Shown: positions 3,087-24,821 of the stretch, piece after piece
Position numbering within the stretch: the stretch's first letter is position 1
Layout of the letters: every line of letters begins with the position of its first letter
Source of the DNA: a bacterium OL-1
GTDB taxonomy: Bacteria > Actinomycetota > Coriobacteriia > Coriobacteriales > Atopobiaceae
Length of the DNA stretch: 64,000 nt
Assembly: GCA_000752675.2 (NCBI GenBank)
Contig: LM994626.1
Coordinates: forward strand, 594,794 to 658,793
Direction of reading: 5' to 3'
Notes under the pieces: generated by a model
What the model saw: the letters and a program-made list of their open reading frames with translations, nothing else
What the model was told of the DNA's origin: nothing
The model's database searches: none
Made by a program: the position numbers and the translations under genes

Positions 3087-4574
3087 CTACTCCCTATAGA
3101 ACTCGTGCAGGTCAGCGGCCATGGCGTGGAGCGTGGGCTCGTCGGTGTAGGCCATGTGGCCACACCCGTAGCGGTGCCAGGTGATCTGACGTTTGAGCGC
3201 ATCTGGCAGGTAGAGCTGCGACATTGTGTGCCGCACGTTCCACCAAGGCGTTGCCGTGTCATAGCGGCCGCCCAGGATGCAAAGCTTGGTCGTGGGACTG
3301 CGCCTCAACGCTACGGCAATGTCGTACGCCAAATTGGGTGCCGCAACGGTTGTCTCGTCAAAGCCTGGCTCATCGTGAACCCAGTTCCATCCAATGCCAA
3401 TCTCTCCCCACACGGAAAGACGGTACTCTTCAGGCCCCTCGTAACCCAGGTCGCCCCTCAAGAAGTCTCGGAATGCCACATACCAGCAGCTCTCAAGCGC
3501 ATGGTTGGCAGGATCCTCGCAGGCAAAGTAGAACGAGGCACGCTGACTGGGAAGCAGCGAGGTCTCGGTGAAGCGCTGGTCAAGACGGCCACACACAAGG
3601 CCGCGGCTAGCGAGAAGGTCTCGCCTAAAGTCCTCAAGCTCAACCCGGTTATTTCGGACAAGCAGATAGTCCTTAGGAAGCCCAATGAACGCAGACAGGT
3701 GCTCGGCCAAAGCGTCCTTATCGGCAGGAGTAATCTCATCACCCAGGAAGATGCCACGGGCATACTCGCCTCCAGCAAACGCAGAGGCCCTGTCGAACCA
3801 CTCGTCCTCGTCGACGCCCTGGCCAACCAGGCCAAAGTACTGCGCCGTCGAGGCAAAGGTGGGGACCATGCCCACGTAGTAGAGGTCATTGCCGGGCAGG
3901 TTCTGCGTCCAGTCGTAGTAGGCCGAGAGCATCACGACGCCCGCCAGGGGCACGTGCGCCTCGCCCAGGTAGCGCATGAGAACGGCGCTACGCATGGTGC
4001 CGTACGACTCGCCAAAGATGTAGAGCGGAGAACCCCAGCGGTCGTTCTCGTCAAGCCACTGGCAGATGGCGCGGCAGAAGGTGCGCGCGTCCTCCTCGAG
4101 GCCATAGACGCGCTTGGTGTCGTAGCCCTCAGCCACGAAGGACCAGCCTGTGCCCAAGGCGTCCGGGAAGACGAGGTCTGACTCCCGCAGCAGCGTGCCG
4201 GGGTTGTCCACGACCTCGTACCCCGCACCCACGAAGTCCATCCCGTGGGTCACCACGCGACGCGGCCCCAGGCCGCCAAAGTTGATGGGCACCGAGGCAG
4301 AACCGGGACCACCGTTGTAGCAGAAGCTCACCGGGCGCTTGTGGGGGTCCACCTCGCTGCCATCAATGGCCGTGGCAACATAGGAGACGTTGAACATGCG
4401 CCCCTCGAGGACCTTGTCGCGGTCGACGATGTCCAGGTGGCCAGCTGTGGCCACGTAGTCGATCGTCTCGTCACCAACATGCCACGTGAGCTGCGCGCTC
4501 TTTGCCTCCGGGACCTCGTTCACCGTGGCCTCGCAACCGCACTCGCACTCACAACCGCACTCGCACTCTCCCAC
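3087..4574 (-). CDS. Serine carboxypeptidase (peptidase S10 family) with a Cys-rich N terminus
   Basis: A 495-residue alpha/beta hydrolase that removes C-terminal residues from peptides. Visible are the oxyanion-hole region CYNGGPGSASV, the nucleophile motif FGESYGT, the catalytic aspartate near GRYDTATP and the histidine near YGCGHMAYTDEP. The open frame extends upstream to 4865, but that part lies over the M20 gene. GTG at 4572-4574 is preceded by GGGAGGT at 5-nt spacing and places the start 13 bp before the end of the M20 gene coding on the same strand. The first 16 residues alternate Cys and Glu/Gly (six Cys at 4, 6, 8, 10, 12, 14), which is not a family feature. No signal peptide is seen, so action on imported peptides is inferred. 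It is the last gene of the peptide operon. Confidence 0.85.
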   Translation of the reverse strand: MGECECGCECECGCEATVNEVPEAKSAQLTWHVGDETIDYVATAGHLDIVDRDKVLEGRMFNVSYVATAIDGSEVDPHKRPVSFCYNGGPGSASVPINFGGLGPRRVVTHGMDFVGAGYEVVDNPGTLLRESDLVFPDALGTGWSFVAEGYDTKRVYGLEEDARTFCRAICQWLDENDRWGSPLYIFGESYGTMRSAVLMRYLGEAHVPLAGVVMLSAYYDWTQNLPGNDLYYVGMVPTFASTAQYFGLVGQGVDEDEWFDRASAFAGGEYARGIFLGDEITPADKDALAEHLSAFIGLPKDYLLVRNNRVELEDFRRDLLASRGLVCGRLDQRFTETSLLPSQRASFYFACEDPANHALESCWYVAFRDFLRGDLGYEGPEEYRLSVWGEIGIGWNWVHDEPGFDETTVAAPNLAYDIAVALRRSPTTKLCILGGRYDTATPWWNVRHTMSQLYLPDALKRQITWHRYGCGHMAYTDEPTLHAMAADLHEFYRE

Positions 4575-4585
4575 CTGAGACCTCC

Positions 4586-5851
4586 CTACTCGATACCAAG
4601 CATTTCGCAGAGGGTGAGCATGTAGATCTCGGCTGCATGCACCACGTCCTCCACGTCCACGTCCTCGTTGTAGCCATGGATGCCGGCGTTGTTGGCTGGG
4701 CCAAATTGGATGGTGGGGCAGCCGAGCGCGCGATAGTGCGCCGCGTCGCTTGATGCCCACTGGTAGGCGGGCAGGCACTCCTCGCCCCAGACGCTCTCGA
4801 TGTTGTCCTTGAGGCTCGTCACCAGAAGGCAGGTGTCGTCGGTGTAGTTGCCCTCGGCAATCCACTCGTAGCCTGCCTCGACACCCGTGACGCCGCTCTC
4901 CTCGATGATGCGGTCAACGGCAGCCACCACGTCCTCGTGCTTGCAGCCGTAGGGCAGACGAACATCCACCTTGCAGCTTGCCTGGTCTGGCACCTGGTTG
5001 ATCTTGCCGCCGCCCTCGATGATGCCCACGTTGGCCGAGCAGTGGTCAATGACGTTGCCCACCAGGGGGTTGTCGATGGTGCGCTCGGCAATGGTGCGGG
5101 AGTTGGCAACCGCGCGAGCCTGGCTGGGAAGGTAGTGGCCGGGCACGGAGGTGAGCTCGTCAATGTGGAGAATGACGCGTGCCAGCTTGGTGATGGCGTT
5201 GTCGCCCTTGTAGTTGCCCGTCGAGCCGTGGCCAGGCGTGCCGTGCGCCGTGAGCGTGAGGTGCAGGATGCCCTTCTGGCCAATCTCAATGGTGTCGTGC
5301 CCGGTGGGCTCCCCCACCATCACGGCATCCGCGCCGTCCGCATAGCCGTTGTCGCAGAACCACTTGGTGCCAGTACCTGCGATCTCCTCGTCCGTGGCCA
5401 CATGCAGGCGGATGTCACCCCTGAGGTTGGCACCAGACTCGTTGAGAAGCGCCATAGAGAAGAGCAGCACTGCGAGGCCGCACTTCATGTCGGAGGCACC
5501 GCGCCCGTGGATCTTCCCGTCAAACACCTCGGCCCCAAAGGGGTCAAAGTCCCAGCCGGAGAGGTTGCCCACAGGAACCACGTCCACGTGACCGTTAAGG
5601 ACAACGCGGAAGCCCTCGTCAGAGCCAATGTGAGCGTAGATTACCGGGTAGTCCTCGCCCGCGTAGGCAACCAGGCGCTGCGACTCGATGCCGTGGCTCG
5701 CGAGGTAGCCCCTCACAAAGTCGACCGCCGGCTCCTGCGGGTCCAGCGGGCTCTGGTTCTTTATGCGAATGAGGTCCTGGCAGAGAGAGACAAGCTCATC
5801 CTTGCGGTCGAGGATCTTCTTGTGAAGCTCTTCCTTCGTAACCGTTGACAT
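4586..5851 (-). CDS. M20-family metallopeptidase (ArgE/DapE/carnosinase-like)
   Basis: A ~421-residue zinc peptidase/deacylase. Metal ligands are visible in order: GHVDVVP, then SDMKCG, DEEIAGTG, GEPTG and a late His in NNAGIHGYNE. The dimerisation-domain histidine lies in GTPGHGSTG. ATG at 5849-5851 is used here; a TTG three codons upstream (5858-5860) sits closer to GGGGGAG, so the start is uncertain by three residues. It lies between the oligopeptide ATPase gene (stop 5909) and the S10 carboxypeptidase (start 4574), so a role in hydrolysing imported di- or oligopeptides is likely. Substrate cannot be told from sequence; ArgE or DapE activity would also fit the fold. Confidence 0.85.
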   Translation of the reverse strand: MSTVTKEELHKKILDRKDELVSLCQDLIRIKNQSPLDPQEPAVDFVRGYLASHGIESQRLVAYAGEDYPVIYAHIGSDEGFRVVLNGHVDVVPVGNLSGWDFDPFGAEVFDGKIHGRGASDMKCGLAVLLFSMALLNESGANLRGDIRLHVATDEEIAGTGTKWFCDNGYADGADAVMVGEPTGHDTIEIGQKGILHLTLTAHGTPGHGSTGNYKGDNAITKLARVILHIDELTSVPGHYLPSQARAVANSRTIAERTIDNPLVGNVIDHCSANVGIIEGGGKINQVPDQASCKVDVRLPYGCKHEDVVAAVDRIIEESGVTGVEAGYEWIAEGNYTDDTCLLVTSLKDNIESVWGEECLPAYQWASSDAAHYRALGCPTIQFGPANNAGIHGYNEDVDVEDVVHAAEIYMLTLCEMLGIE

Positions 5852-5908
5852 GGCAGACAAACACTCCCCCGAACTAACGAACGGATTGATTACGTGAGGC
5901 TCACGCGG

Positions 5909-6943
5909 CTACTCGGCCACGATGTCGTGGTACTTGAAGCACGCCACACGATGGCCGGCCTCGACCTCCTCGAGCGAAGGCCGCTCGTGACGGCAGCGCT
6001 CCATGCAGAAGGGACAGCGGCCGGCAAGTGGGCAGCCCACCTGCTCCCCCACAGGGCTTGGGATCTCGCCCTGGAGCTTGATCTCTTCCTTCTTGTCGAA
6101 GGGGCTCTCGGGCGGGATGGCCGAGAGGAGCGCCTTCGTGTAGGGGTGCAGCGGGTGCGCGTAGATCTTGTCGGCGGGGCAAAGCTCCATGACGCGCCCC
6201 AGGTACATGATGGCAACGCGGTCGGAGATGTGCTTGATGACCGAGAGGTCGTGGCTGATGAAGAGGTACGTGAGGCCACGCTCCTGCTGCAGGTGGCGGA
6301 AGAGGTTGAGCACCTGCGCCTGGATGGAGACGTCAAGCGCGGAGACGGGCTCGTCGCAGACGATGACCTTGGGGTCAAGCACCAGGGCGCGGGCCACGTT
6401 GATGCGCTGGCGCTGACCGCCGGAGAACTCGTGCGGATAGCGCTGGAGGTGCTGCACGTCCAGGCCGACCTCGCGCATGACCTCGAGGACGCGCTGCTCG
6501 CGCCTGGAGGCATCGGGCTCGGTGCGGTAGATGAGCATGGGCTCCTCGATGGTCTTGGCCGCAGTGTAGCGCGGGTCAAGCGAGGAATAGGAGTCCTGGA
6601 AGATCATCTGGATGTCCTTGCGGACCGCCTTGAGCTGCTGCCCGGAAAGCTTGGTGATGTCCTGGCCACCGTAGACGATCTGCCCCGAGGTGGCCTGGTG
6701 CAGCTGCACCACGCAGCGGCCCAGCGTGGACTTGCCGCAGCCGGACTCGCCAATGATGCCCAGCGTCTCGCCGGGATAGACGTCCAAGCTCACGTCGGAA
6801 AGGGCATGGAGCACCTGCGGCTTGGAGAAGAGCTTCCCGCCGCGCAGACGGAAGTCCTTGGAGAGGTGCTTGATGGAGAGAATGGGCTCTCCGCTCGCAA
6901 CCTGGGGTCTCTCGACAACAGCCGCCGTCTGCGTCTCACTCAT
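5909..6943 (-). CDS. dppF: Oligopeptide/dipeptide ABC transporter ATPase (DppF/OppF type)
   Basis: A 344-residue cytoplasmic ATPase that energises peptide import. It has Walker A GESGCGKST, signature SGGQRQR, Walker B with CDEPVSALD, and the C-terminal oligopeptide-transporter extension with the cysteine cluster CPLAGRCPFCMERC. ATG follows GAGGTGAACCACC. The start overlaps the end of the neighbouring DppD-type gene by 8 bp (6936-6943), indicating translational coupling. It pairs with that gene as the heterodimeric ATPase of the transporter. Opp versus Dpp specificity cannot be decided from the ATPase. Confidence 0.9.
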   Translation of the reverse strand: MSETQTAAVVERPQVASGEPILSIKHLSKDFRLRGGKLFSKPQVLHALSDVSLDVYPGETLGIIGESGCGKSTLGRCVVQLHQATSGQIVYGGQDITKLSGQQLKAVRKDIQMIFQDSYSSLDPRYTAAKTIEEPMLIYRTEPDASRREQRVLEVMREVGLDVQHLQRYPHEFSGGQRQRINVARALVLDPKVIVCDEPVSALDVSIQAQVLNLFRHLQQERGLTYLFISHDLSVIKHISDRVAIMYLGRVMELCPADKIYAHPLHPYTKALLSAIPPESPFDKKEEIKLQGEIPSPVGEQVGCPLAGRCPFCMERCRHERPSLEEVEAGHRVACFKYHDIVAE

Positions 6944-7991
6944 GGTGGTTCACCTCGCCTCTCACGAGCCTGTGCTCGCCGTCCTGCCTCAGGCATGCCA
7001 CAAAGTGCCCCGGCTCAACTTCCTTGAGCTCTGGCACGCGCCTGTGGCACTCCTCCGTCGCATAGGGGCAACGGTTACAGAAGTTGCAGCACGTAGCGGT
7101 GAGCCTGAGGTCGGGAGGCACGCCCGGTATGGTCTTGAGGTCGGTCTTCGCGGTGTCGGAGAGCCGCGGCATGGAGTCAAGAAGGCCCCAGGTATAGGGG
7201 TGGAGCGGGTTTGAGTAGAGCTCCTTCATGGAGGTGTACTCGCAGGTGCGCCCCGCGTACATCACCATAACGTCATCCGCCATCTCCCACACGATGCCCA
7301 GGTTGTGGGTGATGAGGAGAATGGCCGTGCTCAGCTCGTCCTGAAGGCCTCGCAGGAGCGAGAGGACCTGGGACTGAACGGTAACGTCAAGTGCGGTCGT
7401 TGGCTCGTCGGCGATGATGAACTTGGGGTGGCAGCTCACCGCCATGGCGATGATCACGCGCTGGCACATGCCACCCGAGAGCTCGTAGGGGTAGGCGTCC
7501 ATGCGGGCCTCTGGGTCGGGGATGCCAACGAGGCGCAGCATCTCGACGGCGCGGTCGTAGGCCTCCTTCTTTCCCAGGTCGCTGTGCGCGCGAATCAGCT
7601 CGACCATCTGGGTCCCCACCTTGAAGACCGGGTCGAGGCCGCTCATGGGGTCCTGGAAGATCATCGAGATGTCGCTGCCGCGAAGCTTGAGCAGCTCGCG
7701 CTCCGGCACGTGGACCATGTCAATGCCATCGAACTCGATGGAGCCGCCCTCGATCTTGCCGGTCTTTGCAAGCAGGCGAATGACGGAGGATGCGGTCACG
7801 CTCTTGCCAGAGCCGGACTCGCCCACGATGGCAAGGGTCTTGCCGCGGTCGAGGGAGAAGCTCACGCCGTCGACCGCCTTGGCGATGCCGGCTGCCGTGT
7901 GGAAGTACGTCTTGAGGTCGCGTACCTCGAGGATCCTCTCGCCCGACTTTGTCCCGGCGTCGTCGAGAAGCCCCGTGTTCTGCTCGGTCAT
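6936..7991 (-). CDS. dppD: Oligopeptide/dipeptide ABC transporter ATPase (DppD/OppD type)
   Basis: A 351-residue ATPase with Walker [10 protein letters not shown], signature LSGGMCQR and Walker [10 protein letters not shown]. It has the C-terminal extension with cysteines ([14 protein letters not shown]) seen in OppD/DppD proteins. ATG at 7989-7991 is preceded by AGGTGA at 5-nt spacing; a GTG three codons upstream lacks a ribosome site. The Shine-Dalgarno overlaps the stop of the upstream permease gene (8001), so the genes are tightly coupled. It acts with the DppF-type subunit on the inner face of the membrane. Confidence 0.9.
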
Positions 7992-8000
7992 GGTCGTCAC

Positions 8001-8915
8001 CTACCGCTTCTGCTTGGGGTCGAAGACGTCGCGGATGCCGTCGCCAAAGAGGTTGAAGCCAAGCACCGTGAGCAGGATGAAGATGCCCGAGATGGTGGCG
8101 ATGTGGGGTGCGGTCTGCAGCGTGCTCTTGCCCTCCGAGAGAATCGCGCCCCAAGACGCGGTGGGCGGCTGCACGCCAAGGCCGAGGAACGAGAGGGCCG
8201 CCTCGGAGATGATCGCGCTTGCGATGTTGAGCGTGAAGTACACGATGACCGGCGACATGGCGTTGGCAAAGATGTGCTTGAAGAGGATGCGCGCAGGAGA
8301 GGCTCCAATGACCCTCTCGGCGTTGCAGTACTCCTCGTTCTTCACCACGTGCACCTGGCCGCGCACCACGCGGGCAAAGTTGGGGACGTTTGCCACGCCA
8401 ATGGCGATGATCACGTTCTGCGTCCCCTGCCCGAGGATGGTCATGAGGATGAGGGCGAGCAGAATGAAGGGGAAGGCCATCATGCCGTCCATGATGCGCA
8501 TGATAATGGAGTCGACCGCACCGCCAAAGAAGCCGGCAACCAGGCCGAGAAGCACACCGATGATGGCACCCACGATGGTGCCGCCAATGGCGATGAAGAT
8601 CGAGATTCTCGCTCCATAGATGATGCGCGAAAGAAGGTCGCGGCCATAGGAGTCGGTGCCCAAGAGGTGTCCCGCCTGCCCCGGTGCCGCAAACATGTTG
8701 GACATGTCCGTGACATTGGGGTCATAGGGCGAGATGAGCGGCGCAAAGATGGCGAGAAAGACCATGAAGGCCACGATGATAAGGCCCACGACTGCCATCT
8801 TGTTGCGCGTGAGCTTGTGCCAGGCGTTGTTGGCACGCCGCTCGCGCCTGAGCATCTCGAGGTTGGCGGCGTCACTCAGGGCCTCTGGGGCGCTCGAGGT
8901 TGTCTGCTCTGCCAT
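8001..8915 (-). CDS. dppC: Peptide ABC transporter permease (DppC/OppC type)
   Basis: A 304-residue membrane protein with about six helices. A cytoplasmic N-terminal tail precedes the first helix (MAVVGLIIVAFMVFLAIFAP). The BPD inner-membrane domain has the EAA-like loop around ERVIGASPARILFKHIFANAM. The tail LGFNLFGDGIRDVFDPK is typical of OppC/DppC. Its ATG overlaps the upstream permease stop as TAATG, and GGGAGGT precedes it. It forms the membrane channel with the DppB-type subunit. Confidence 0.9.
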   Translation of the reverse strand: MAEQTTSSAPEALSDAANLEMLRRERRANNAWHKLTRNKMAVVGLIIVAFMVFLAIFAPLISPYDPNVTDMSNMFAAPGQAGHLLGTDSYGRDLLSRIIYGARISIFIAIGGTIVGAIIGVLLGLVAGFFGGAVDSIIMRIMDGMMAFPFILLALILMTILGQGTQNVIIAIGVANVPNFARVVRGQVHVVKNEEYCNAERVIGASPARILFKHIFANAMSPVIVYFTLNIASAIISEAALSFLGLGVQPPTASWGAILSEGKSTLQTAPHIATISGIFILLTVLGFNLFGDGIRDVFDPKQKR

Positions 8916-9871
8916 TAGCGGACACCTCCCTCATAGCTCACCTTGGGGTTAATGAGCATGTACACGATGTCGACGATCAGGTTCACAAAGACGAAGACCA
9001 CTGCCGAGAAGAGAACCACGCCCTGGATGAGGGCGTAGTCACGGCCGTTGACCGCATTCACGATGAGGGTGCCCAAGCCCGGCCAGGAGAAGATCGTCTC
9101 GGTGAGGATTGCGCCCGCAAAGGCGCCGGCAAGCTGGATGCCCAGCACCGTCACAATGGGAGGAAGCGCGTTCTTGAACGCGTGCTTCCAGATGACCACG
9201 GACTCCTTGATGCCTCGGGAGCGAAGCGCCTTGATGTAGTCCGCGTTGATGGACTCGAGCATGCTAGAACGCGTGATGCGGGCAAAGGTGGCAGCCGGAA
9301 TCGTTGCCAGGCAGAGGCATGGCAGGATCATGTGGCTTACCACGTCCCAGGCACCCTTGGCGATGTTGCCCATGCCCATAACGGGAAGCCACCCAAGGTT
9401 GACGCTGAAGGTAAGGACAAGCATCAGGCCAAGCCAGAAGATGGGCACGGAGACGCCGACAAGCGCGAGCACCATGAAGATGTAGTCAAAGGCGGTGTTC
9501 TGCTTTACCGCGGACTCGACGCCAATGGGGATGCCAACGAGAATGGCCAGGACAAGGCCCGTGATGGTGATCATGAGCGTGGACGGGAGCCGGCTCAGGA
9601 TGATTGGCATCACGGCGCCGTTATAGGAGTACGAATAACCAAAGTCCCCCTGCAATACGCCGAGGACGTAGTTCACGTACTGCTGGAGCATGGGCTCGTT
9701 GAGGCCCATCTTCTCTCGCATGGTCTCGATGGCATCGGGCGATGCCTGGGGACCAAGCATGGTAACTGCGGGGTCGCCAGGAATCATGCGCGTGAGGACA
9801 AACGTGAACGTAACGACCACGAGCAGGACGGGGATGGTCTGAAGCGCCCGCCTGATGATTGTCTTGGCCAT
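8915..9871 (-). CDS. dppB: Peptide ABC transporter permease (DppB/OppB type)
   Basis: A 318-residue membrane protein. The N-terminal helix LQTIPVLLVVVTFTFVLTRMIPGDPA is the standard opening of OppB/DppB permeases. The EAA loop is around YIKALRSRGIKESVVIWKHAFKNA and the C-terminal helix ends near VDIVYMLINPKV. ATG follows GGGGGTGGTAGCAGG. It lies 117 bp downstream of the binding-protein gene, with a strong hairpin (9933-9965) in that gap, a common arrangement that keeps binding protein more abundant than permease. Confidence 0.9.
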   Translation of the reverse strand: MAKTIIRRALQTIPVLLVVVTFTFVLTRMIPGDPAVTMLGPQASPDAIETMREKMGLNEPMLQQYVNYVLGVLQGDFGYSYSYNGAVMPIILSRLPSTLMITITGLVLAILVGIPIGVESAVKQNTAFDYIFMVLALVGVSVPIFWLGLMLVLTFSVNLGWLPVMGMGNIAKGAWDVVSHMILPCLCLATIPAATFARITRSSMLESINADYIKALRSRGIKESVVIWKHAFKNALPPIVTVLGIQLAGAFAGAILTETIFSWPGLGTLIVNAVNGRDYALIQGVVLFSAVVFVFVNLIVDIVYMLINPKVSYEGGVR

Positions 9872-9988: not shown

Positions 9989-11635
9989 CTACGCGGTCTT
10001 CGAGACGTTGACCTCGTCGTTCACGATGACGATCTTGCCGTCGGCGCGCTGCTCGTAGCCCTGGACCTTGGTGGTGAGGCCGGTGTTCACGAACTCGGAG
10101 GCGTAGACCAGCATCGGGTCGTAGGAGACGATCGCCTTGAGCGCCTGCTTGTAGTAGTCGGCACGCTGGTCCTGGTCGGTGACGGCAAGGGCCTTGTCGA
10201 GAAGGTCGTCCACGTCCTGGTGGCTAAAGCCAGCGCCGTTGCCGAGCGCGCCCACCTCCGAGCTGCTGAAGAGCTTGTTGAGGAAGAAGAACGGGTCGGG
10301 ATACCAGGTCCAGCTCATGCCGTACATGTCGGCAGTGCCAGAGGCGGCCGTTGCGCTGAACGTGCCCCAGTCGGATGGGTTGAGCGTGAGGTCGATGTTC
10401 AGGGTCTCCTTGAGCGTCTGCTGGAGGATGGTTCCCATCTTGATGCGGGCCTCGGTGTTGGAGATGTAGAGGTTGAGCGAGAGGCCGTCAGCGTACCCCG
10501 CCTCTGCCATCAGCGCCTTCGCGGCATCCGGGTCGTACGTGGGGACGTCGCTCTCGACGGAGGCATCGTAGCCCCAGCTGCCCTTGGGGAGCGGCAGCGA
10601 GGCGGTCTCGGCCTCGCCGTACGGATAGACGCCCTTCACCAGGTCATCGCGGTTGATCGCCATGAGGATGGCCTTGCGCACGCGCTGGTCGGCGGTGGGG
10701 CCGTTCACCTGGTTGAAGTAGACGTAGGCGATGTGCAGGGCAGGCGTCTGCTGCATGACCAGGTCGGAGTTGTTCTTGATGGTCTGGATTGACTCGCCGG
10801 TGAGCGAGGTGGCCATGTCGAGCTCGCCGGTGGTGAGGCCGTTTGCAGCCTGGGTCATGTCGGTGACGACCTTGATGGTCACGCCGTCGAGGTTAGGCGT
10901 GGGACCCCAATAGGTGTCGTTCTTGGAGAGGTCGGACTCCTGGTCCTTGAGGAACTGGTCGAGCTTGAAGGGACCGGAGCCAACGAGGTGGTCGCCGAAG
11001 GAGACGCCCCAGCCCTCGACCTCCTCCTTGGGGACAATGACGTTGCCGGCGTCGGTGAGCGCGGTGAGGAACGAGGCGGCGGGGGCGTTGAGGACGCAGT
11101 TGACGGTCGTGTCGCTCACAACATCAACGTGGTCGAGCATCGCAAGACGGTTCATCGAGGACTGCTTGGCGGAGCGCTCGAGGGAGTACTTGATGTCCTC
11201 CGCGGTGACGGCGCGACCGTCCTGATACTGACCCTTCTGGAACTTGGCGTCGCTGCGCAGGTTGAAGGTGTAGGTAAGGCCGTCATCGCTGATCGTCCAG
11301 TCGGTCGCGAGCACCGGGACAATCTGGGAGAGGTCCATGTTGTAGTCAACGAGCGTGTCGCATACGCAGTTGATGATCTGGGACTCGTAGGTGCCCGTGT
11401 AGAGAATGGGGTCAAGGTACTTGGGCGAGGAGGGCAGCGAGATCACGAGGGTGCCTCCCGCCGCAGTTCCACCTGCCCCCATGGAGGCCGACGTATCGGA
11501 GCTGCCGCCACATCCAGCAAGCCCCATCGAAACTGCGCCTAGGCCCAGCATTCCCGCCGTGCGCAGGAAGCCACGCCTCGAGAGGCATGCCATGGACTCC
11601 TGTATGTTCAACTTGGCCTTGTTTTGAGCGCTCAT
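9989..11635 (-). CDS. dppA: Peptide ABC transporter substrate-binding lipoprotein (SBP family 5)
   Basis: A 548-residue secreted binding protein. The N terminus combines a twin-arginine-like motif (SRRGFL at 19-24), a hydrophobic stretch and a lipobox LAGC with the lipidated Cys at 42, so it looks like a Tat-exported lipoprotein. The family-5 core is clear: LDPILYTG, then YTFNLRSDAKFQKG, AEDIKYSLERS, and RVRKAILMAINRDDLVKGVY. ATG at 11633-11635 is preceded by GGGAGGAG at 6-nt spacing; the frame extends upstream without a good site. It is the first gene of the peptide operon and is divergent from the DUF1177 gene across ~280 bp. Confidence 0.9.
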   Translation of the reverse strand: MSAQNKAKLNIQESMACLSRRGFLRTAGMLGLGAVSMGLAGCGGSSDTSASMGAGGTAAGGTLVISLPSSPKYLDPILYTGTYESQIINCVCDTLVDYNMDLSQIVPVLATDWTISDDGLTYTFNLRSDAKFQKGQYQDGRAVTAEDIKYSLERSAKQSSMNRLAMLDHVDVVSDTTVNCVLNAPAASFLTALTDAGNVIVPKEEVEGWGVSFGDHLVGSGPFKLDQFLKDQESDLSKNDTYWGPTPNLDGVTIKVVTDMTQAANGLTTGELDMATSLTGESIQTIKNNSDLVMQQTPALHIAYVYFNQVNGPTADQRVRKAILMAINRDDLVKGVYPYGEAETASLPLPKGSWGYDASVESDVPTYDPDAAKALMAEAGYADGLSLNLYISNTEARIKMGTILQQTLKETLNIDLTLNPSDWGTFSATAASGTADMYGMSWTWYPDPFFFLNKLFSSSEVGALGNGAGFSHQDVDDLLDKALAVTDQDQRADYYKQALKAIVSYDPMLVYASEFVNTGLTTKVQGYEQRADGKIVIVNDEVNVSKTA

Positions 11636-11913
11636 TGTCAGCTCCTCCCATACGCCGAGAGCACATGTCTCGGCAACCAACGCAGAGTATGCGCGTTGAC
11701 CCAGGTGGGTCGTTGGATGCAGCATGCCATGCTGCTGACCCTGGTGCCTTCGCTGTATGGGGGTATTTCACTCGTATGAAACAAGTTACATCGTGCTGTA
11801 ACAATTATTCTCGCTCGTCAGGCTAAGGTAGATAGTAAACAAGCCGGTTATTAACGATGTATACGCTCAAATCGGCTTATGAAATGAAATGTATTTCGTT
11901 GAAAGGAATTCCA
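11636..11913. promoter_or_regulatory. Divergent control region between the peptide operon and DUF1177-aroM
   Basis: A 278-bp AT-richer gap between two divergent starts. It contains inverted repeats GTTACA (11785-11790)/TGTAAC (11797-11802), TTTCA (11766-11770)/TGAAA (11777-11781), and GAAATGTATTTC at 11886-11897 just before the DUF1177 ribosome site. Any of these could be operators. The RpiR-family gene at 13557-14375 is the nearest regulator; the link is inferred. Confidence 0.45.
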
Positions 11914-12852
11914 ATGCTCCTTCGTCAGATGCTCGACATCTACGACCTCATCGACAAGCCCTCCGCCTCGGGAAACGAAGTTGCGGACTTCCTCCGTGGT
12001 CGCGGTGCAAGCGACGTCACCGTCAAGCGCGTCTCTGGCGAGCGTGGCGGAACCGACTGCATGAAGATCCTCATCCCTGGTTCCAACGGTAAGTCGAACG
12101 GCGGAGAAGCCCCTACGCTTGGCATCGTCGGCCGTCTTGGTGGCCTTGGCGCCCGCCCGGAGCTCATTGGAGCCGTGTCCGATGGCGATGGCGCCCTCGC
12201 GGCACTCACCGCCGCCCTCAAGCTCGTTGAGATGCACGAGCAGGGCGACGTCCTTACCGGCGATGTCATCGTTGCCACCCATGTATGCCCCGACGCCCCC
12301 ACGCTCCCGCACGAGCCCGTACCCTTCATGGATTCTCCTATCGACATGGAGACCATGAACCGCATGGAGGTCGACCCACGCATGGATGCCGTGGTCTCCA
12401 TCGACACCACCAAGGGCAACCGCATCATCAACGTGAACGGCATCGCCATCTCCCCCACCGTGATGCAGGGCTACATCCTCTCGGTCTCCAACGACCTCAT
12501 GGACGTTATGACGCGCGTCACCGGGAAGATGCCGCAGGTATTTGCCCTCTCTCAGCAGGACATCACCCCGTACGGCAACGACCTCTACCACCTCAACAGC
12601 ATCCTGCAGCCCGCCACGGCGACAGATGCGCCGGTTGTGGGCGTGGCAATTGCCACCGAGCAGATGGTTGCCGGCTGCGCCACCGGCGCCACGCACGGCA
12701 CCGACGTCGAGGAGGCGGCACGCTTTGCCGTCGAGTTGGCCAAGGTCTACGGGCAGGGCGCCTGCTCCTTCTACGACCCCGCGCAGTTTGACCACCTGGT
12801 TGAGCTCTACGGCACCATGGAGCGCTTCCAGACGCCAGGCGAGGCGCGCTAG
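11914..12852 (+). CDS. DUF1177 family protein
   Basis: A 312-residue protein recognised as DUF1177 by its near-collinear conserved blocks: LLRQMLDIYDLID, GGTDCMKILIPG, GIVGRLGGLGARPE, VSDGDGALAALTAALKL, GDVIVATHVCPDAPTLPHEPVPFM, SIDTTKGNRI and CATGATHGTD. Many conserved His, Asp and Glu residues suggest a metal-dependent, peptidase-like (M42-resembling) fold, but no function is established. ATG at 11914 follows AAAGGAATTCCA; an upstream ATG at 11857 lacks a site. It is followed after 2 bp by the AroM gene and diverges from the peptide transport operon, suggesting a role in processing imported peptides or amino-acid derivatives (inference). Confidence 0.85.
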   Translation: MLLRQMLDIYDLIDKPSASGNEVADFLRGRGASDVTVKRVSGERGGTDCMKILIPGSNGKSNGGEAPTLGIVGRLGGLGARPELIGAVSDGDGALAALTAALKLVEMHEQGDVLTGDVIVATHVCPDAPTLPHEPVPFMDSPIDMETMNRMEVDPRMDAVVSIDTTKGNRIINVNGIAISPTVMQGYILSVSNDLMDVMTRVTGKMPQVFALSQQDITPYGNDLYHLNSILQPATATDAPVVGVAIATEQMVAGCATGATHGTDVEEAARFAVELAKVYGQGACSFYDPAQFDHLVELYGTMERFQTPGEAR

Positions 12853-12854
12853 GG

Positions 12855-13532
12855 ATGGCACGCACCCGGATTGCCGGCATCACCGTGGGACAGGCGCCCC
12901 GCACGGACATGACAGCGGACCTTGAGTCGCGCCTCTCTTCAACACTTGAGCTTGTACAGTATGGGGCGCTCGACGATCTCACGGTAAACGACGTCGAGCG
13001 CGACCTTGCGCCCGAGCCCGGCGACGAGGTGCTTGTTTCGCGCATGCGCGATGGCTCGCAGGTCACCTTCTCAGGCACCAAGGTGCTGCCCCTGGTGCAG
13101 GAAAGAATCGACCAGGCGGAGCGTGAGGGTGCCCGGGCCATCATCGTGCTGTGCACGGGGTCCTTTCCCGAGCTGCGCCACGAGGTTCCTCTCGTCTATC
13201 CGCAGCCGCTCTTCCACGCTGTTGCCCGCGCCCTTGCGGGCGGGCGGCGCGTGGCGGTGATGGTGCCCGAGCCGTCCCAGGTGGAGCAGGCTAGGGTCTG
13301 GTGGGGTGAGCACGGCGTCAAGGTAGACGTTGTCTCGGCAAGCCCATACGCAGGCATCGGCGGCGTGCGAAAAACGGCAGCCGGACTTCGCGAATCAAAC
13401 GACGCGTTCCTCTGCCTTGACTGCATGGGATTCACCACGCAGATGCGCGACGCCGCGCGCGAGGCGTCTGGCCTCGACGTGCTGCTGCCGCGCACCCTTG
13501 TTGCCTCGGTTGTCTCCGAGCTTCTCGGCTAG
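12855..13532 (+). CDS. AroM family protein
   Basis: A 225-residue protein matching the AroM family: opening TRIAGITVGQAPRTD, middle RAIIVLCTGSFPEL (Cys100) and late FLCLDCMGFTTQMRD (Cys187 and Cys190). The paired Cys-containing loops at the two halves resemble the Asp/Glu racemase superfamily, in which one cysteine from each half acts in catalysis; this is inference. The E. coli gene was named for its aromatic-amino-acid (TyrR) regulon, but its function is unknown. It starts 2 bp after the DUF1177 stop, so the two are co-translated. It converges on an RpiR regulator. Confidence 0.85.
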   Translation: MARTRIAGITVGQAPRTDMTADLESRLSSTLELVQYGALDDLTVNDVERDLAPEPGDEVLVSRMRDGSQVTFSGTKVLPLVQERIDQAEREGARAIIVLCTGSFPELRHEVPLVYPQPLFHAVARALAGGRRVAVMVPEPSQVEQARVWWGEHGVKVDVVSASPYAGIGGVRKTAAGLRESNDAFLCLDCMGFTTQMRDAAREASGLDVLLPRTLVASVVSELLG

Positions 13533-13545
13533 CGTTCTTCTTGAT

Positions 13546-13571
13546 CCGGACGGGGTTCACTCCCCGTCCGG
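13546..13571. terminator. Bidirectional hairpin terminator between aroM and rpiR-like genes
   Basis: CCGGACGGGG (13546-13555) and CCCCGTCCGG (13562-13571) form a perfect 10-bp stem with a 6-nt loop between convergent genes. The stem overlaps the last codons and stop of the RpiR-family gene. U-tracts are absent on both sides, so termination efficiency is uncertain. Confidence 0.65.
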
Positions 13572-14375
13572 CACACTTGCCTTAGCGTTGACACCCTCCG
13601 CCCTGCTCTGCAGATAGGCAACCTCGTCTAGAAGAATCTCCAGGTATATGTAAATGGTGAGCTGGGCATCTGCGAGGTTCGACCGCCCGCCGTTCATAAT
13701 GCTTGACAGCACGATTGCGTTCGATGCGTGCGAGATGAACTGGCTTCGGGCATTTACCGTAACGAAGAAGACCTCTCCTCCGTTCTCGCGAATAGCATCC
13801 ATGAGCAGGGCATAGGCATCGTAGTCGCGACCCTTCTGCGAGATGACCACGCAGACGTCGCCCTTGCCTAGGATGCTTGCCACGTCATCCATCACCGTCG
13901 TGTCGTTTGTCACGCTATTAAAGATGCCTGCATGCATGAGGCCTGCAGATAGCTGCAACGCCCTCTCATACATGCGGTCCACGCCCCATACGGCAACGTG
14001 TGGCGCATTGCAGAGCGAGGCAGCAACATGGTTGAGCAACGACGCGTCGACTGCCTCCGCAACCTTGCGCAGCTGAACAACGTTGATGTTCACAAAACGG
14101 GAGAGGAGGCCGCCCTCGCTCGCGCCACCCTCTTCCTGCGTGCCATTGGAGAGAAGCTGACGGTCCATCTCAAAGCGGAATTCTGAGAAGCCGCTATATC
14201 CCATGCGCTGGCACATGCGCACGATGGTTGCAGCCGAGAGGCCTGAGAGCTCCGAGACCTTCGAGACGGTGTTACCCACCACATCCATGGGATGACCTGC
14301 GATGTAGCGGGCGACGGCAAGCTCAGACTCGGTAAACTTCCCCTCCTGGGACTTCATGCGCTCTATCAGGTCCAC
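13557..14375 (-). CDS. RpiR/MurR-family transcriptional regulator (HTH + SIS)
   Basis: A 272-residue regulator. Residues 1-77 form the HTH_6 domain (FTESELAVARYIAGHP, VSKVSELSGLSAATIVRMCQRMGYSGFSEFR). Residues ~100-240 form an SIS sugar-phosphate-binding domain (HVAVWGVDRMYERAL, GDVCVVISQKGRD). GTG at 14373-14375 is chosen because GGAG sits 6 nt upstream; ATG at 14357 would shorten it by six residues. It is convergent with DUF1177-aroM and upstream of nothing else on its strand, so it may control the peptide/DUF1177 locus or the following MFS gene. Such regulators usually sense phosphosugars. Confidence 0.85.
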   Translation of the reverse strand: MDLIERMKSQEGKFTESELAVARYIAGHPMDVVGNTVSKVSELSGLSAATIVRMCQRMGYSGFSEFRFEMDRQLLSNGTQEEGGASEGGLLSRFVNINVVQLRKVAEAVDASLLNHVAASLCNAPHVAVWGVDRMYERALQLSAGLMHAGIFNSVTNDTTVMDDVASILGKGDVCVVISQKGRDYDAYALLMDAIRENGGEVFFVTVNARSQFISHASNAIVLSSIMNGGRSNLADAQLTIYIYLEILLDEVAYLQSRAEGVNAKASVPDGE

Positions 14376-14498
14376 CCGGTACTCCGCCCTCCATCAATCA
14401 AGCTCCACCATCCGCTTCGCGCCATGCAAGCGAGTTCGCGAGACATCGTGTATGGTGCCACAGAAGGGCTTCTCGTGCCATGGCCCGTTTGGCCAGCC

Positions 14499-15833
14499 CT
14501 ACTCCCCCGCGTTGGCCTCGCGACGCAGGATCTCGTCGGCGAGGATCGAGTCGCCGTGCTTGGCCAGGGCAATGAAGGCGCACATGGCCGCACCCATCAC
14601 GGTGATGTAGAGGAAGAGCTGAGACTCGGCCACATCCATCACCAGCCCGGAGAGGATGGGCGTCACAACCTGCGCTGCCATGCTCACCGTGTAGTAGTAG
14701 CCAGAGTAGCGGCCAACGCTCCGGGAGCTGCAGCCCTCGAGGATCATGGGATACACGCACAGGTCAACGGCACCCAGAGAAGCGCCCATGAACAGGAAGA
14801 GAACGTAGTAGAGGGGCGTGAACGACGGGAAGAGCCACATGATGGCCGGACAGATGGTCATCACCAAGCCGGCAACGAGGGCAACGCGCTTCCTGCCCAC
14901 CTTGAGGGAGAGGTTGGCCACCGGAACGTACGAGAGAAGCCCGCCCGCAATGGTGACAATGTTGATGATTGCGTAGGAGCCGCCGAGCATCGAGAAGAAG
15001 TCCGACGCGTAGCGCGAGATATTGGTGGTCATGGCGTTATAGGACATGTAGTAGAAGAAGACGGCGCCAAGGAGCAGGGCAATCGAGCGCACGAGCTCTG
15101 GGTCGGTCACGCGCTCCTTGCCTTCCTCGGCGTCGTCATCCGCATCGATCGAGTCTTCCTTGATGCCCATGGCAAGGCTCTCCTCATGCATCTTTGCCAC
15201 AGACTTGGGCTCGTTGAGAAGCACGCGATAGACCACGGCCGCCACGGCGATCACGATGCCCTGCAGCAGGAACACCGGCACGTAGTCCGGGTTGGCCACC
15301 GAGGGGACAAGAACCGAGATGGCCACCAGCATGACGCCCGTGCCCGCGTATCCCACAATCTTGTCGACCGAGTCGCCCTTGGTACGCAGCGGACGCGGCG
15401 TGATATCCGCCACAATCGCCAGGGTCGCGGTGCGATAGGAGCAGATGGCAACCAGAGTCACCAGAATCATCGCGATGAGCAGAGGCAGGCTTCCCAGGTT
15501 GTTTGCCACGGCGATGAGCGGTACAGAGACCGCTGCAACGGCAGATCCGGCCAGGATGAAGGGGGTTCTTCTCCCCAGGTGCGAGCGACAGCGGTCGGAG
15601 AGGATGCCAAACCACGGGAGAAGGAACAGGCCAAACACGTTGTCGAGCGCCATCACAACGCCGGTGAGCCAGTTGGAGAGACCAAAGGTCTGGGTGAGCA
15701 TCTTGGGGACCAGGCCGTCGAAGACCTGCCAGAACGAGATCATCCCCATAAAGGGAAGAGAGGCGATCGCACAGCGCTTCCAGTCGAAGGGGATCTTCCG
15801 CTTGGGCGTAGTGCCCTGCTTCTTCTCGGCCAT
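14499..15833 (-). CDS. MFS transporter (GPH/SLC45-like, sugar-cation symporter type)
   Basis: A 444-residue protein with about twelve membrane helices and a central charged cytoplasmic loop (residues ~215-250, DDDAEEGKERVTDPE). The loop between helices 2 and 3 carries GILSDRCRSHLGRRTPFIL, the D-R-GRR-PF signature shared by GPH and SLC45-type sugar symporters. Substrate is unknown. ATG follows AGAGGAG. It lies 60 bp downstream of an M20 peptidase gene on the same strand, so the pair may be co-transcribed and the cargo could be a product or substrate of that peptidase. Confidence 0.8.
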   Translation of the reverse strand: MAEKKQGTTPKRKIPFDWKRCAIASLPFMGMISFWQVFDGLVPKMLTQTFGLSNWLTGVVMALDNVFGLFLLPWFGILSDRCRSHLGRRTPFILAGSAVAAVSVPLIAVANNLGSLPLLIAMILVTLVAICSYRTATLAIVADITPRPLRTKGDSVDKIVGYAGTGVMLVAISVLVPSVANPDYVPVFLLQGIVIAVAAVVYRVLLNEPKSVAKMHEESLAMGIKEDSIDADDDAEEGKERVTDPELVRSIALLLGAVFFYYMSYNAMTTNISRYASDFFSMLGGSYAIINIVTIAGGLLSYVPVANLSLKVGRKRVALVAGLVMTICPAIMWLFPSFTPLYYVLFLFMGASLGAVDLCVYPMILEGCSSRSVGRYSGYYYTVSMAAQVVTPILSGLVMDVAESQLFLYITVMGAAMCAFIALAKHGDSILADEILRREANAGE

Positions 15834-15893
15834 CTTGGCTCCTCTCGTCCTGGCAACGCCGGAAGGCGACGCGGCAGGCCTTGGTTGCGTTCC

Positions 15894-17384
15894 TTATGCC
15901 TTCAGCTGGTCAAGCCCTCGAACAAATGCCACGTAGAACTCCACACCACGCTTGTAGTCATCAACCGGGATGCGCTCGTTGGCCCCGTGGATGAGCCCGC
16001 GCGCCACCGGCGTGTAGATGAAGGCGGCAAAGCGGTACACATGGTCGCAGATCTTGGTGAACGAGCGCGAGTCCGAGCAGCTGGTCTGCACGTAGGGGCA
16101 CACGCCCGCCTCGGGATAGACACCGGCGACGCAGCGACGGATGTAGTCAAACTGCACGTCGTCGTGCGGCGAGAAGGGCGAGGGCTCGTTGACCAGGCTG
16201 TTCTCGGCAATCTCCACGCTCACGGCATCTGGGGCAACACCGGACGCGCGGCACTCCTCGGCAGCCTGAGCGCGAGCGCGAGAAAGCGCGGCGCTCACGT
16301 CCTCGAACGGGGCCACGCGCACATTGAGGTTAGCCGTAGCCTCGGGCGGCAGGACGTTTCTCGCAGGCGACCCTTGAAGCTGTGTGAGCGCGTAGGTCGA
16401 GCGGACCATGGGGCCGGTCTCGGCACCGGCGGCAAGGATGCGCCCCACCAGCGGCCGGAAGAGCCACATGTTTGCAAAGATGATGCGATAGGCAAAGCTC
16501 CCGCGGGCCGCGAGCTCCTGAAGCATGGCCGTGACAGCATCTGCAACCTGCGGTTTTCCGGGATGGCCGCAGATGCGCTCCGTCGCGCGGGCAAGAAGCC
16601 GTGTGGCATCGTTGTTCGAGGGGGCAGACGCGTGCCCGCCCGTACCATGCGCCGTCACGGTGACGTCCACATGGCCCTTCTCAGAGACGCCCACCATAGC
16701 CATGGGCGAGGTCACGCCCAGGGGCACGCCAGTGGCAACCGCGCCGCCCTCATCGAGGACCATGCAGGGATGCACGTTGTGCTCGCGCAGCCACGCCACG
16801 GCATTGTCGGCCGTGGGGCCAGAGGTCTCCTCGCAGCAGGACGAGAAGAACCAGATGTCGCGCGGCGGGACGTAGCCCTTGGCCAACAAGTGCTCGAACG
16901 CCTCCATGCAGCCGCAGAAGCAGAGCTTGTTGTCGAGCGTGCCGCGGGCCCAGATCTGCCCGTCGTGGACCTCGGCCTCAAAGGGCGGGTAGGTCCACTC
17001 CTGGCCATCGGTTGGCACCACGTCGTGGTGGGCCATCATCACGACGGGCGCCAACGAGGAGTCACGCCCAGGCCAGCGCATGAGGATGCCGTACTCGTCG
17101 ATGTGGGTGAGCTCGAACGCCTGGAACGTGCGCGGGTAGAGGCGCTGGAGCGTGGGCACCCAGCGATCGAAGGGTTCGCGGTCAAGCTTGGCCGGGTCGT
17201 CTCGCGAGACGGTGGGAATACGCAGTAGCGTGCGGAAGCGCTCGACCTCCGCGTCGCCGGCATGGTAGCCGCCCGCGTCGATGGGCGAGCCGGCCGGAAG
17301 CGTTGGCTTGAGCGCCGCCGCGCGAACCACGCATGCGACTGCCAACGCGAGAATGACTACCAGGATGAGAATGACAGCAACCAT
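15894..17384 (-). CDS. M20-family peptidase with an N-terminal membrane anchor (carboxypeptidase S / PM20D1-like)
   Basis: A 496-residue zinc peptidase. Residues 2-22 form a hydrophobic anchor (VAVILILVVILALAVACVV). Metal-binding motifs follow: MMAHHDVVP, GTLDNK, CCEETSG, VLDEGGA and a C-terminal His in GLIHGANERIP. The dimerisation-domain motif is GTGGHASAP. The length and the HHDVVP variant match the yeast Cps1/human PM20D1 branch, which handles N-acyl amino acids or dipeptides. ATG at 17382-17384 is preceded by GGAGG with 4-nt spacing; the frame extends upstream without a better site. It probably acts at the outer membrane face and may work with the adjacent MFS transporter. Confidence 0.85.
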   Translation of the reverse strand: MVAVILILVVILALAVACVVRAAALKPTLPAGSPIDAGGYHAGDAEVERFRTLLRIPTVSRDDPAKLDREPFDRWVPTLQRLYPRTFQAFELTHIDEYGILMRWPGRDSSLAPVVMMAHHDVVPTDGQEWTYPPFEAEVHDGQIWARGTLDNKLCFCGCMEAFEHLLAKGYVPPRDIWFFSSCCEETSGPTADNAVAWLREHNVHPCMVLDEGGAVATGVPLGVTSPMAMVGVSEKGHVDVTVTAHGTGGHASAPSNNDATRLLARATERICGHPGKPQVADAVTAMLQELAARGSFAYRIIFANMWLFRPLVGRILAAGAETGPMVRSTYALTQLQGSPARNVLPPEATANLNVRVAPFEDVSAALSRARAQAAEECRASGVAPDAVSVEIAENSLVNEPSPFSPHDDVQFDYIRRCVAGVYPEAGVCPYVQTSCSDSRSFTKICDHVYRFAAFIYTPVARGLIHGANERIPVDDYKRGVEFYVAFVRGLDQLKA

Positions 17385-17819
17385 GGCGCCTCCAGTGACG
17401 TTTGGGCCATGGTAGCTCTTCCTCCTCGCCCCCTCCCCCTCCATTCTTTATCGGTATCTGAGAATTTCGATTTCAGCGACCTGCGGAAACACTGGCCCTA
17501 CTTCACAGTGATCGATAAAGAACGCAGATATGGGCAAAACAGCACCGTAGAAGTCCTTCTCGACAGACCACAGAGGCCGCCCGCACGGCTGCCAAACCGT
17601 AGAATCTTCTCGCTGCCCGTCCAAGCAACAGGCCGTTGTGTGATTCCGTTCAGCGCTGAGGAGACAAACCTCACACGTGTTTTTTCTTTATTGATATTCT
17701 GGCGCTCTTAACTGGGGTTTCACTGCCAAATATCAAAAAATAAATATCACGTGTGAGGTTGTCGCGTGAGGTTGTTCCTGAGCTCGGCGCGTGAGGTCTC
17801 CCGGCGCGCTGGGACTAAG
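17385..17819. other. 435-bp gene-free region holding an AT-rich inverted-repeat element
   Basis: No convincing gene. It lies between the M20 start and the HAD stop, both minus strand, and is AT-rich compared with its surroundings. The main structure is the inverted repeat at 17667-17760. A direct repeat GTGAGGTTGT occurs at 17753-17762 and 17766-17775. The promoter for the M20 gene should lie here. Confidence 0.6.
17667..17760. repeat. 94-bp AT-rich inverted repeat (32-bp arms)
   Basis: Arms at 17667-17698 and 17729-17760 match at 28 of 32 positions. The outer 13 bp are perfect (AACCTCACACGTG against CACGTGTGAGGTT). The 30-bp centre separates them. The arms are strikingly AT-rich for this genome. 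It could be a miniature mobile element, a structured leader of the M20 mRNA, or a large operator. Confidence 0.7.
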
Positions 17820-21684: not shown

Positions 21685-22170
21685 CTACTTCTTGAGTAGC
21701 CCCTCGACGCTTACGGCGTTGTTCGCGGGTACGATCCTGATTTCAACTTTCACGCCCTTGGCGACGAGCTCCTTGAAGATCTCTCGCTCCTCGGGTGAGG
21801 CGGCAATGTTCTTGTAGAACTTCTTCCTGCCAGCCGACATGCCCATGCCGCCAATGTTCACGAAGTCAATGTCGACGCCGGCATCAACCAGGCGCTTAAT
21901 GGTAAGCGGGAACTTCACCAACAGAATGGTCTGCTGAGGGAGACCCTCCTTCAGCTTGGGGGCCGCATCATCCACCGAGAGCGTCTCGATGGTCGTTCCC
22001 TCGGGGAGTAGCAGCTGGAACATCTTGGTCATGAACGGGTCTTTGCTCACCTGGTCATCCACAACCATGATGTGGGCGCACTCTGGGAACTGGTGGATCC
22101 ATGCCGTCATGACTTGGCCATGGATAAGACGGTCGTCAATACGGGTAAACACAAGGTTCTTCACGCTCAT
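21685..22170 (-). CDS. PTS mannose-family EIIB subunit
   Basis: A 161-residue cytoplasmic phosphocarrier. The phosphorylated His17 lies in TRIDDRLIHGQV, followed by MTAWI and a typical HIMVVDDQVSKDPF segment. ATG at 22168-22170 follows AAAGGAGAG. In this operon EIIB lies after the epimerase, whereas EIIA, EIIC and EIID come first. It receives phosphate from EIIA (24822-25238) and passes it to the sugar brought in by EIIC/EIID. Confidence 0.9.
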   Translation of the reverse strand: MSVKNLVFTRIDDRLIHGQVMTAWIHQFPECAHIMVVDDQVSKDPFMTKMFQLLLPEGTTIETLSVDDAAPKLKEGLPQQTILLVKFPLTIKRLVDAGVDIDFVNIGGMGMSAGRKKFYKNIAASPEEREIFKELVAKGVKVEIRIVPANNAVSVEGLLKK

Positions 22171-22228
22171 GGCTCCGCTCTCCTTTGGGTTGCCGGACCA
22201 AATTTCTCGTGTGACAAATGCGTAGCTA

Positions 22229-22912
22229 CTACGCTCGTACAATCTCGGCCTGATAGGCCCTGTACTTCTCTGAAAATGCGCTAGGACCACCCTGAATGAG
22301 CGAGGAGGTACCAACCACAAACCCCGTGGCACCTGCCTCATGCATGTGCCTGGCATTCGAAGGCGTCGTGTTGCCGTCTACCACAATGCTTATCGGGTGC
22401 TTTGCTTGAGAGGTTATCTCGGAAATCCTGCGCAGCTTGTCAAGATGGTCGGGAACCATCTTCTGACCGGCAAAGCCCGGACTCACAGCCATGACCATGA
22501 CAAAATCGAGAACGTCGAGGCATTCCTCCAGATAGCTCACCGGCACGCCCGGACTTAGGGCAAGGCCCGCGGAAACGCCCATGGCCCGAAGGCTCTCGAG
22601 CAGACTATACGGCTGGAGGGAAACCTCGGGATGGAAGCTCAGCGAGTCTCCCTTGCGGAGGCCGAAATACGGGACAAAGCGCTCTGGCTCGGTAGCCATG
22701 ATGTGGACATCAATCGAGAGGTCCGTAAGCTGTCGGATTGCCTTGAAGTCTTCCGAGCCGAGCATGATGTTTGGCACGTAATGCCCATCCATCACATCAA
22801 AGTGAATCCCGGCAACACCCGCCTCCTCGAAGGCGCGCACGTAGGCCTCAAGGTCCCACGGCTTGCAGCACATTACCGAGGGGTAGATGTCCACATCCTT
22901 CTTGTTTCCCAT
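22229..22912 (-). CDS. Ribulose-phosphate / allulose-6-phosphate 3-epimerase family protein
   Basis: A 227-residue TIM-barrel epimerase. Family motifs in order: MCCKPWDLEAYV, GIHFDVMDGHYVPN (metal ligands His, Asp), DVHIMATEP (His), VMVMAVSPGFAGQ, and ISIVVDGNTT (catalytic Asp). A dedicated copy inside a PTS operon points to a hexulose-6-phosphate 3-epimerase such as AlsE rather than the housekeeping Rpe; sequence alone does not separate them. ATG follows AGGGGGTTGAC. A strong hairpin lies between this gene and the preceding EIID gene. Confidence 0.8.
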   Translation of the reverse strand: MGNKKDVDIYPSVMCCKPWDLEAYVRAFEEAGVAGIHFDVMDGHYVPNIMLGSEDFKAIRQLTDLSIDVHIMATEPERFVPYFGLRKGDSLSFHPEVSLQPYSLLESLRAMGVSAGLALSPGVPVSYLEECLDVLDFVMVMAVSPGFAGQKMVPDHLDKLRRISEITSQAKHPISIVVDGNTTPSNARHMHEAGATGFVVGTSSLIQGGPSAFSEKYRAYQAEIVRA

Positions 22913-23006
22913 GTCAACCCCCTGAAGAGCCCGCCGCGAGCGGCAAAAGGCTCATACTTGTACCGAGCCCTCGTCGCGGTGCAAGCGCTGCGGGGGCCTG
23001 GGTAGC

Positions 23007-23053
23007 GTGCCCTCCTGTCCCACTTGGACATGGCTGTTCGGACAGGAGGGCAC
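23007..23053. repeat. Intercistronic hairpin between PTS EIID and the epimerase gene
   Basis: A 14-bp perfect stem, GTGCCCTCCTGTCC (23007-23020) with GGACAGGAGGGCAC (23040-23053), and a 19-nt loop. There is no U-tract on the minus strand. Lying inside an operon, it may separate the expression of the membrane subunits from the catabolic genes (inference). Confidence 0.7.
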
Positions 23054-23123
23054 CCGCACGTACACTGTCTTGCTTCGCTCTAGAGCGTGCCACGGCGCGT
23101 CTTGCGTGGCAGCCGGAAACGGT

Positions 23124-24709: not shown

Positions 24710-24821
24710 TACTCTCACCTTCTACTTACACGCCCCAGCAGATTCAGAACAAAAAAGTGCAGCCTTCAGCTAGCCCTTAATCGCCTTGGGTCCCCCTCTC
24801 AAGTTTGGTTGTACGTGTGGC

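Follow-up and report, generated by a model that had tools for sequence, protein, structure and literature searches.

The two subunits of cyclodipeptide oxidase (CDO) are typically encoded in overlapping A and B frames (PMC11760959), and a 2024 paper reported that CDO clusters free of CDPS are enriched for AroM, DUF917, PF01177 racemases, dpp, OPT and peptidases (PMC11055893); DUF1177 is not mentioned in that paper. Diketopiperazine degradation is poorly known, and the peptidases assayed in one study did not attack diketopiperazine (PMC3852281). HyuA-type enzymes carry out ATP-dependent opening of lactam rings (PMC6061476). The alpha-protons of diketopiperazines are measurably acidic (PMC8159430), which makes cofactor-free epimerisation chemically reasonable. 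A literature search for DUF1177 itself returned nothing but an unrelated mention.

The gut bacterium studied here carries adjacent DUF1177 and AroM genes beside a peptide importer and peptidases, within a window of 64,000 nucleotides (the whole stretch of DNA that was analysed). With about even confidence, the pair is proposed to form the heart of a module that imports and degrades modified peptide derivatives, with cyclic dipeptides or related cyclic amides as the likeliest substrates. The proposal draws on gene linkage, predicted folds, paired cysteines in AroM, loss of motifs in DUF1177 and a unique inverted repeat, from which we infer the substrate and the activities. The features of the locus are as follows.

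3087..4541, minus strand: S10 serine carboxypeptidase family protein (profile match; start approximate, because the longest frame overlaps the M20 gene)
4586..5860, minus strand: M20 hydrolase, ArgE/DapE subfamily (TIGR01910 above cut-off)
5909..6943, minus strand: DppF-like ATPase (profile match)
6936..8000, minus strand: DppD-like ATPase (profile match)
8001..8915, minus strand: DppC-like permease (profile match)
8915..9871, minus strand: DppB-like permease (profile match)
9989..11635, minus strand: DppA-like substrate-binding lipoprotein (SBP_bac_5; start picked by ribosome site GGAGGAG)
11636..11913, no strand: shared intergenic control region between the divergent operons, 278 bp
11766..11781, no strand: inverted repeat TTTCA-N6-TGAAA, candidate operator (same position in 5/5 genus loci tested)
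11785..11802, no strand: inverted repeat GTTACA-N6-TGTAAC, the stronger of the two, candidate operator (repeat search)
11914..12852, plus strand: DUF1177 protein (PF06675), 312 aa (438 bits against a gathering score of 25; ATG at 11914 with ribosome site AAAGGAA)
12855..13532, plus strand: AroM protein (PF07302), 225 aa (246 bits against a gathering score of 23.8)
13557..14375, minus strand: RpiR-family regulator (HTH_6 + SIS), convergent to AroM, a possible local regulator

The initial annotation had described a 2-bp gap within the pair, a control region common to the pair and to a divergent dpp operon ending in M20 and S10 peptidase genes, and an RpiR gene convergent to AroM, and all of this was borne out. 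The DUF1177 stop codon occupies 12850-12852 and AroM starts at 12855; the opposing minus-strand operon runs in the order SBP5, DppB, DppC, DppD, DppF, M20, S10, and provides a complete Dpp/Opp ABC importer of one binding protein, two permeases and two ATPases. With the binding-protein start most likely at 11635, the shared region measures 278 bp. The locus is 100% identical to that of Tractidigestivibacter montrealensis KD21, in whose matching 20-kb locus (L020) no CDO (CDOA nitroreductase and CDOB PF19585) was found. Upstream of the RpiR gene and on the same strand lie an MFS gene and a second M20 hydrolase gene, whose product looks membrane-anchored, and this set (13557-17444) may be a separate peptide-utilisation unit. 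Farther along, at 21685-25409, translations indicate a mannose-type PTS operon with epimerase and dehydrogenase genes, and elsewhere in the same genome (G000 contig C10, 87-106 kb) an M42 aminopeptidase gene is clustered with three further SBP5 genes.

Near the pair in the window there is no DUF917, HyuA or PF01177 racemase gene, and the hydrolases there are of linear-peptide types only; a cyclic-amide substrate for this locus would thus be borrowed from its relatives. The same observation is the starting point of a rival explanation, in which the substrates are linear peptides with D- or otherwise altered residues, AroM racemises a free or terminal residue, DUF1177 is a D-specific or iso-peptide hydrolase, and no ring is involved. 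We consider this rather unlikely. In its favour, the window pair is accompanied only by linear-peptide enzymes (dpp, ArgE/DapE-type M20, S10), relatives add M29, M18, PepE and C1-type peptidases, and OPT and dpp are peptide importers. Against it, the recurrence among relatives of DUF917, HyuA, the NCS1 permease and the hydantoin-type racemase would be unexpected, as would the cyclodipeptide oxidase described below, and the families examined included no recognisable D-aminopeptidase (M55, DmpA).

The window and four other loci of the genus share a stretch of about 43 bp (11764-11806) with hardly any variation, and both inverted repeats, with centres 20 bp apart, fall within it. With one mismatch allowed, GTTACA-N6-TGTAAC occurs once in the whole genome; it is a single-copy sequence in each of six of eight genus genomes and was missing in all four related loci without an RpiR gene that were checked (L024, L105-L107). 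In two further loci (L023, L025) RpiR still adjoins AroM, with the MFS gene that neighbours it in the window far off. The distribution of RpiR and of the repeat fits, and does not prove, an action of RpiR on both operons, and RpiR is plausible as the local regulator. A scan for consensus promoters and terminators gave nothing useful. It might also be supposed that the pair has nothing to do with the dpp operon and stands beside it by chance or through a lineage-specific accident; importers do vary among lineages, but the strong enrichment in both samples described next, the conserved divergent layout, and the unique inverted repeat between the operons leave this explanation scarcely credible.

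Conservation of the neighbourhood was evaluated in two samples. A scan of public genomes for DUF1177 yielded 80 loci with flanks, to which six plasmid loci were added, and 53 dereplicated loci with enough flank were counted. As the 80 loci are the closest relatives of the window protein, so that the set is biased toward close relatives, and as related genomes are not independent, a second sample of 36 loci was drawn from an even selection of Bacillota and Pseudomonadota genomes, independent of similarity. Neighbours were counted by profile, since some AroM genes are hidden by longer antisense frames, and the family identities of representative neighbours were confirmed by Pfam. In the first sample 39 of 53 loci have AroM no more than 10 kb from DUF1177, 32 of them within 300 bp, and SBP5 (dpp) genes are near DUF1177 in 27 of 53, against 5.5% expected from SBP5 genes per genome (P ~3e-20). 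The second sample (n=36) gave AroM in 22 loci, PucR in 21, PF01177 racemase in 20, DUF917, M29 and OPT in 15 each, and dpp in 7; PucR regulators are frequent in both. AroM is present somewhere in 36 of 40 DUF1177 genomes, and within Coriobacteriia a clear AroM match was found in 4 of 13 genomes with DUF1177 versus 0 of 136 without (P 4e-5), a count that leaves out a borderline 24-bit match in one further DUF1177 genome. Separate annotated records from Paenibacillus, Klebsiella, Sodalis and Salinigranum also speak for the proposed module.

M20, M29, M18 and PepE peptidases, hydantoin-type racemases, DUF917 and HyuA recur near DUF1177, and the importer, where it is not dpp, is OPT, NCS1 or Liv-type. 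Over 116 loci, those with dpp tend to carry M20, those with OPT carry M29, racemase and DUF917, and those with NCS1 carry DUF917 and HyuA; none of the three main importers is found in 35 of the 116, short contigs being part of the cause. Genes for Liv-type (branched-chain) importer ATPases adjoin DUF1177 in three loci (L166, L168, L169), where what looks like a tungsten aldehyde oxidoreductase gene is close by, both names coming from reading of the sequence. The importers thus vary, yet each would suit a peptide, amino-acid or cyclic-amide substrate. A family of about 280 aa (cluster c28) with no Pfam or NCBIfam match recurs in DUF1177-AroM-DUF917 operons (L040:12607-13440, L065, L088, L096, and 8 of the 36 second-sample loci). 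AroM and HyuA seem to exclude each other within this set of loci (0/72 vs 11/44), but this comes mostly from one family, Eggerthellaceae, and was set aside as evidence.

Within Coriobacteriia, the divergent dpp-M20-S10 arrangement recurs in the same genus and in three more distant members (L105-L107); it is found in Atopobiaceae and one other family. The three more distant loci have an added gene for a bleomycin-hydrolase-like C1 peptidase (Peptidase_C1_2), located between DUF1177 and the binding-protein gene in L105 (10585-12066) and L107, and probably in L106. A different layout is seen in L108-L115, assigned by inference to Eggerthellaceae, in which DUF1177 and M29 are divergent from DUF917-HyuA, usually with an NCS1 permease. 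These last clusters invite a second rival, that the substrate is a hydantoin, thiohydantoin or ureide (an amino-acid heterocycle or purine breakdown product), with AroM a hydantoin or allantoin racemase, DUF917 and DUF1177 ring-opening or decarbamoylating enzymes, and M20 a deacylase. Such a substrate would suit the NCS1 permease and HyuA of the Eggerthellaceae clusters, the frequent PucR regulators, and the S-methyl-thiohydantoin desulfurase-like nature of the DUF917 family; however, the DUF917 protein tested, with a score of 249, falls short of the 440-450 cut-offs of both thiohydantoin equivalogs, NCS1 is found in only about 11 of 116 loci, and the dpp and OPT importers, like several dipeptidases, would be left without an evident function. 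The structural evidence on AroM given below favors this rival; overall we judge it unlikely.

The AlphaFold2 model of AroM (pLDDT 95.3) has its best structural matches in the hydantoin racemase 2eq5 (Z 17.2 over 192 residues) and in allantoin racemases (Z 16.9). Cys100 and Cys190 are both invariant in 44 of 44 aligned homologues. Each lines up with a cysteine of 2eq5, though the profile match is weak (E 0.06), and AroM has no better match in the PDB by sequence. Paired cysteines in a racemase fold make the DUF1177-linked AroMs look like complete two-base racemases. Against the E. coli AroM equivalog (NF007788) the window protein scores 182.5, below the curated cut-off of 198. E. coli AroM (L184) has Ser at the first conserved cysteine position, and may not be a two-base racemase, and an AroM from Shinella (L181), which has a LuxR-type-looking C-terminal extension, appears to be without either cysteine; PF07302 therefore probably mixes different activities.

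Foldseek aligns almost all of the DUF1177 model (pLDDT 90.9) with M28, M20, M42 and M17 enzymes (E 4.5e-8), and superposition on the M28/M20/M42 fold (VIA) gave Z 16.7 and an rmsd of 3.3 with 228 residues aligned. DUF1177 is thus predicted to have the clan-MH alpha/beta metallopeptidase fold, with no significant PDB match by sequence. Neither the HxD nor the EE motif, which serve metal binding and catalysis in clan MH, is conserved in 65 DUF1177 proteins, so that DUF1177 is no ordinary peptidase; R74, D90, D92, T122, C125, H133, D164, D216, H226 and Q232 are invariant polar residues instead. Profile-profile alignments with M42, M20 and M18 were not significant, and residues were therefore mapped by secondary-structure order only, without coordinates: in this mapping R74 takes the place of the first metal-binding His, D90 that of the bridging Asp, T122-H123 that of the catalytic Glu pair, D164 that of the Asp after it, and H261 (59 of 65 sequences) that of the last His. 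As the catalytic Glu and first His are missing by this mapping, hydrolysis is not assured.

The transferrin receptor and glutaminyl cyclase are non-catalytic or non-hydrolytic members of clan MH. Both are among the structural matches of the DUF1177 model, and a further rival would make DUF1177 a relative of this kind that binds or cyclises the imported compound, leaving AroM as the only enzyme of the pair. Loss of the HxD and EE motifs while other polar residues stay invariant would be in keeping with this, but the strict conservation of so many polar residues, which extends from archaea to Firmicutes, points to catalysis, and the residue mapping has the basis just described; on these grounds the rival appears quite improbable.

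A link to cyclic dipeptides comes from one Bacillota locus of the second sample (L152), with an operon of PucR-M29-OPT-racemase-DUF917-DUF1177-AroM-nitroreductase (CDOA)-PF19585 (CDOB)-M20, where the M29 label is from our own profile and the Pfam match is below threshold. In the PDB the nitroreductase best matches two A subunits of cyclodipeptide oxidases, Ndas1146 and AlbA (the identity of 9EXV was taken from PMC11760959); the PF19585 protein scores 76.8 bits and has AlbB as its sole PDB match (E 0.024), and the two frames overlap. Judged from sequence, this operon encodes both cyclodipeptide-oxidase subunits, although such an oxidase is found in only 1 of about 116 DUF1177 loci. Two other nitroreductases considered for the same role were rejected: that of the Salinigranum cluster, examined as a fused cyclodipeptide oxidase, is closer to NfrA-type flavin reductases, and that of L108 is a general nitroreductase. 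On four alphaproteobacterial plasmids an AroM gene without DUF1177 adjoins DUF917-HyuA, mostly with dpp, OPT or M20; for one of these, CP030828, only HyuA is named in the record.

The proposed module would operate as follows. The Dpp importer would take the compound up, AroM would act as a cofactor-independent two-cysteine racemase inverting the alpha-carbon, and DUF1177, as an atypical amide hydrolase with a remodelled clan-MH site, would open the ring or cleave an unusual peptide bond. M20 and S10, and elsewhere also M29, M18 or PepE, would then cleave the linear product to amino acids. A more specific version, in which DUF1177 is a new clan-MH family of cyclic-dipeptide (2,5-diketopiperazine) hydrolases with a remodelled metal site, AroM is a cyclic-dipeptide epimerase, and diketopiperazine salvage of this kind is widespread in anaerobes, is offered tentatively and is itself doubtful.

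These results bear in several ways on the initial annotation, which had called both families widely conserved and proposed a pathway for modified or D-residue-containing peptides or amino-acid derivatives. The first statement is wrong, DUF1177 being patchy in distribution (13 of 149 Coriobacteriia, 46 of 398 Bacillota and 3 of 398 Pseudomonadota genomes, counting the genome at the centre of each draw). The neighbourhoods, including the sample drawn independently of similarity, give good support to a pathway for modified peptides or amino-acid derivatives, but a D-residue substrate is not specifically supported, as DUF917, HyuA, the hydantoin-type racemase, NCS1 and the CDO of L152 point at least equally to cyclic amides. 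The suggested co-occurrence with peptide transporters was seen in the counts above for DUF1177 loci, and dpp, OPT, NCS1 and Liv are all of peptide, amino-acid or cyclic-amide type, in place of the unrelated transporters or pathways that had been named as contrary evidence. The anticipated resemblances of DUF1177 to M42/M20 peptidases (here M20/M28/M42) and of AroM to racemases hold at the fold level for the predicted models. Two families without known function thereby gain testable enzyme roles and a common pathway, and the control region between the divergent operons gives a concrete handle: it carries an inverted repeat that occurs a single time per genome, and its inducer would reveal the substrate.

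In comparison with known systems, the DUF1177 loci share with CDPS-free CDO clusters (PMC11055893) the partner families AroM, DUF917, PF01177, dpp/OPT and peptidases, and L152 has both subunits, whereas the window and nearly all DUF1177 loci are without CDO. AroM resembles the Asp/Glu/hydantoin racemase superfamily in its predicted fold and in both cysteines, but belongs to a separate Pfam family, PF07302, with a weak PDB sequence match. DUF1177 resembles the clan MH metallopeptidases (M28, M20, M42, M17; glutaminyl cyclase) in predicted fold along nearly the whole chain, and differs from them in lacking conserved HxD/EE and any significant sequence or profile match. Dipeptide ABC import operons with an ArgE/DapE-type M20 are the remaining parallel, dpp with a nearby M20 being common in DUF1177 loci; unlike these, the operon in the window is coupled to DUF1177-AroM and to S10, and has a control region of its own.
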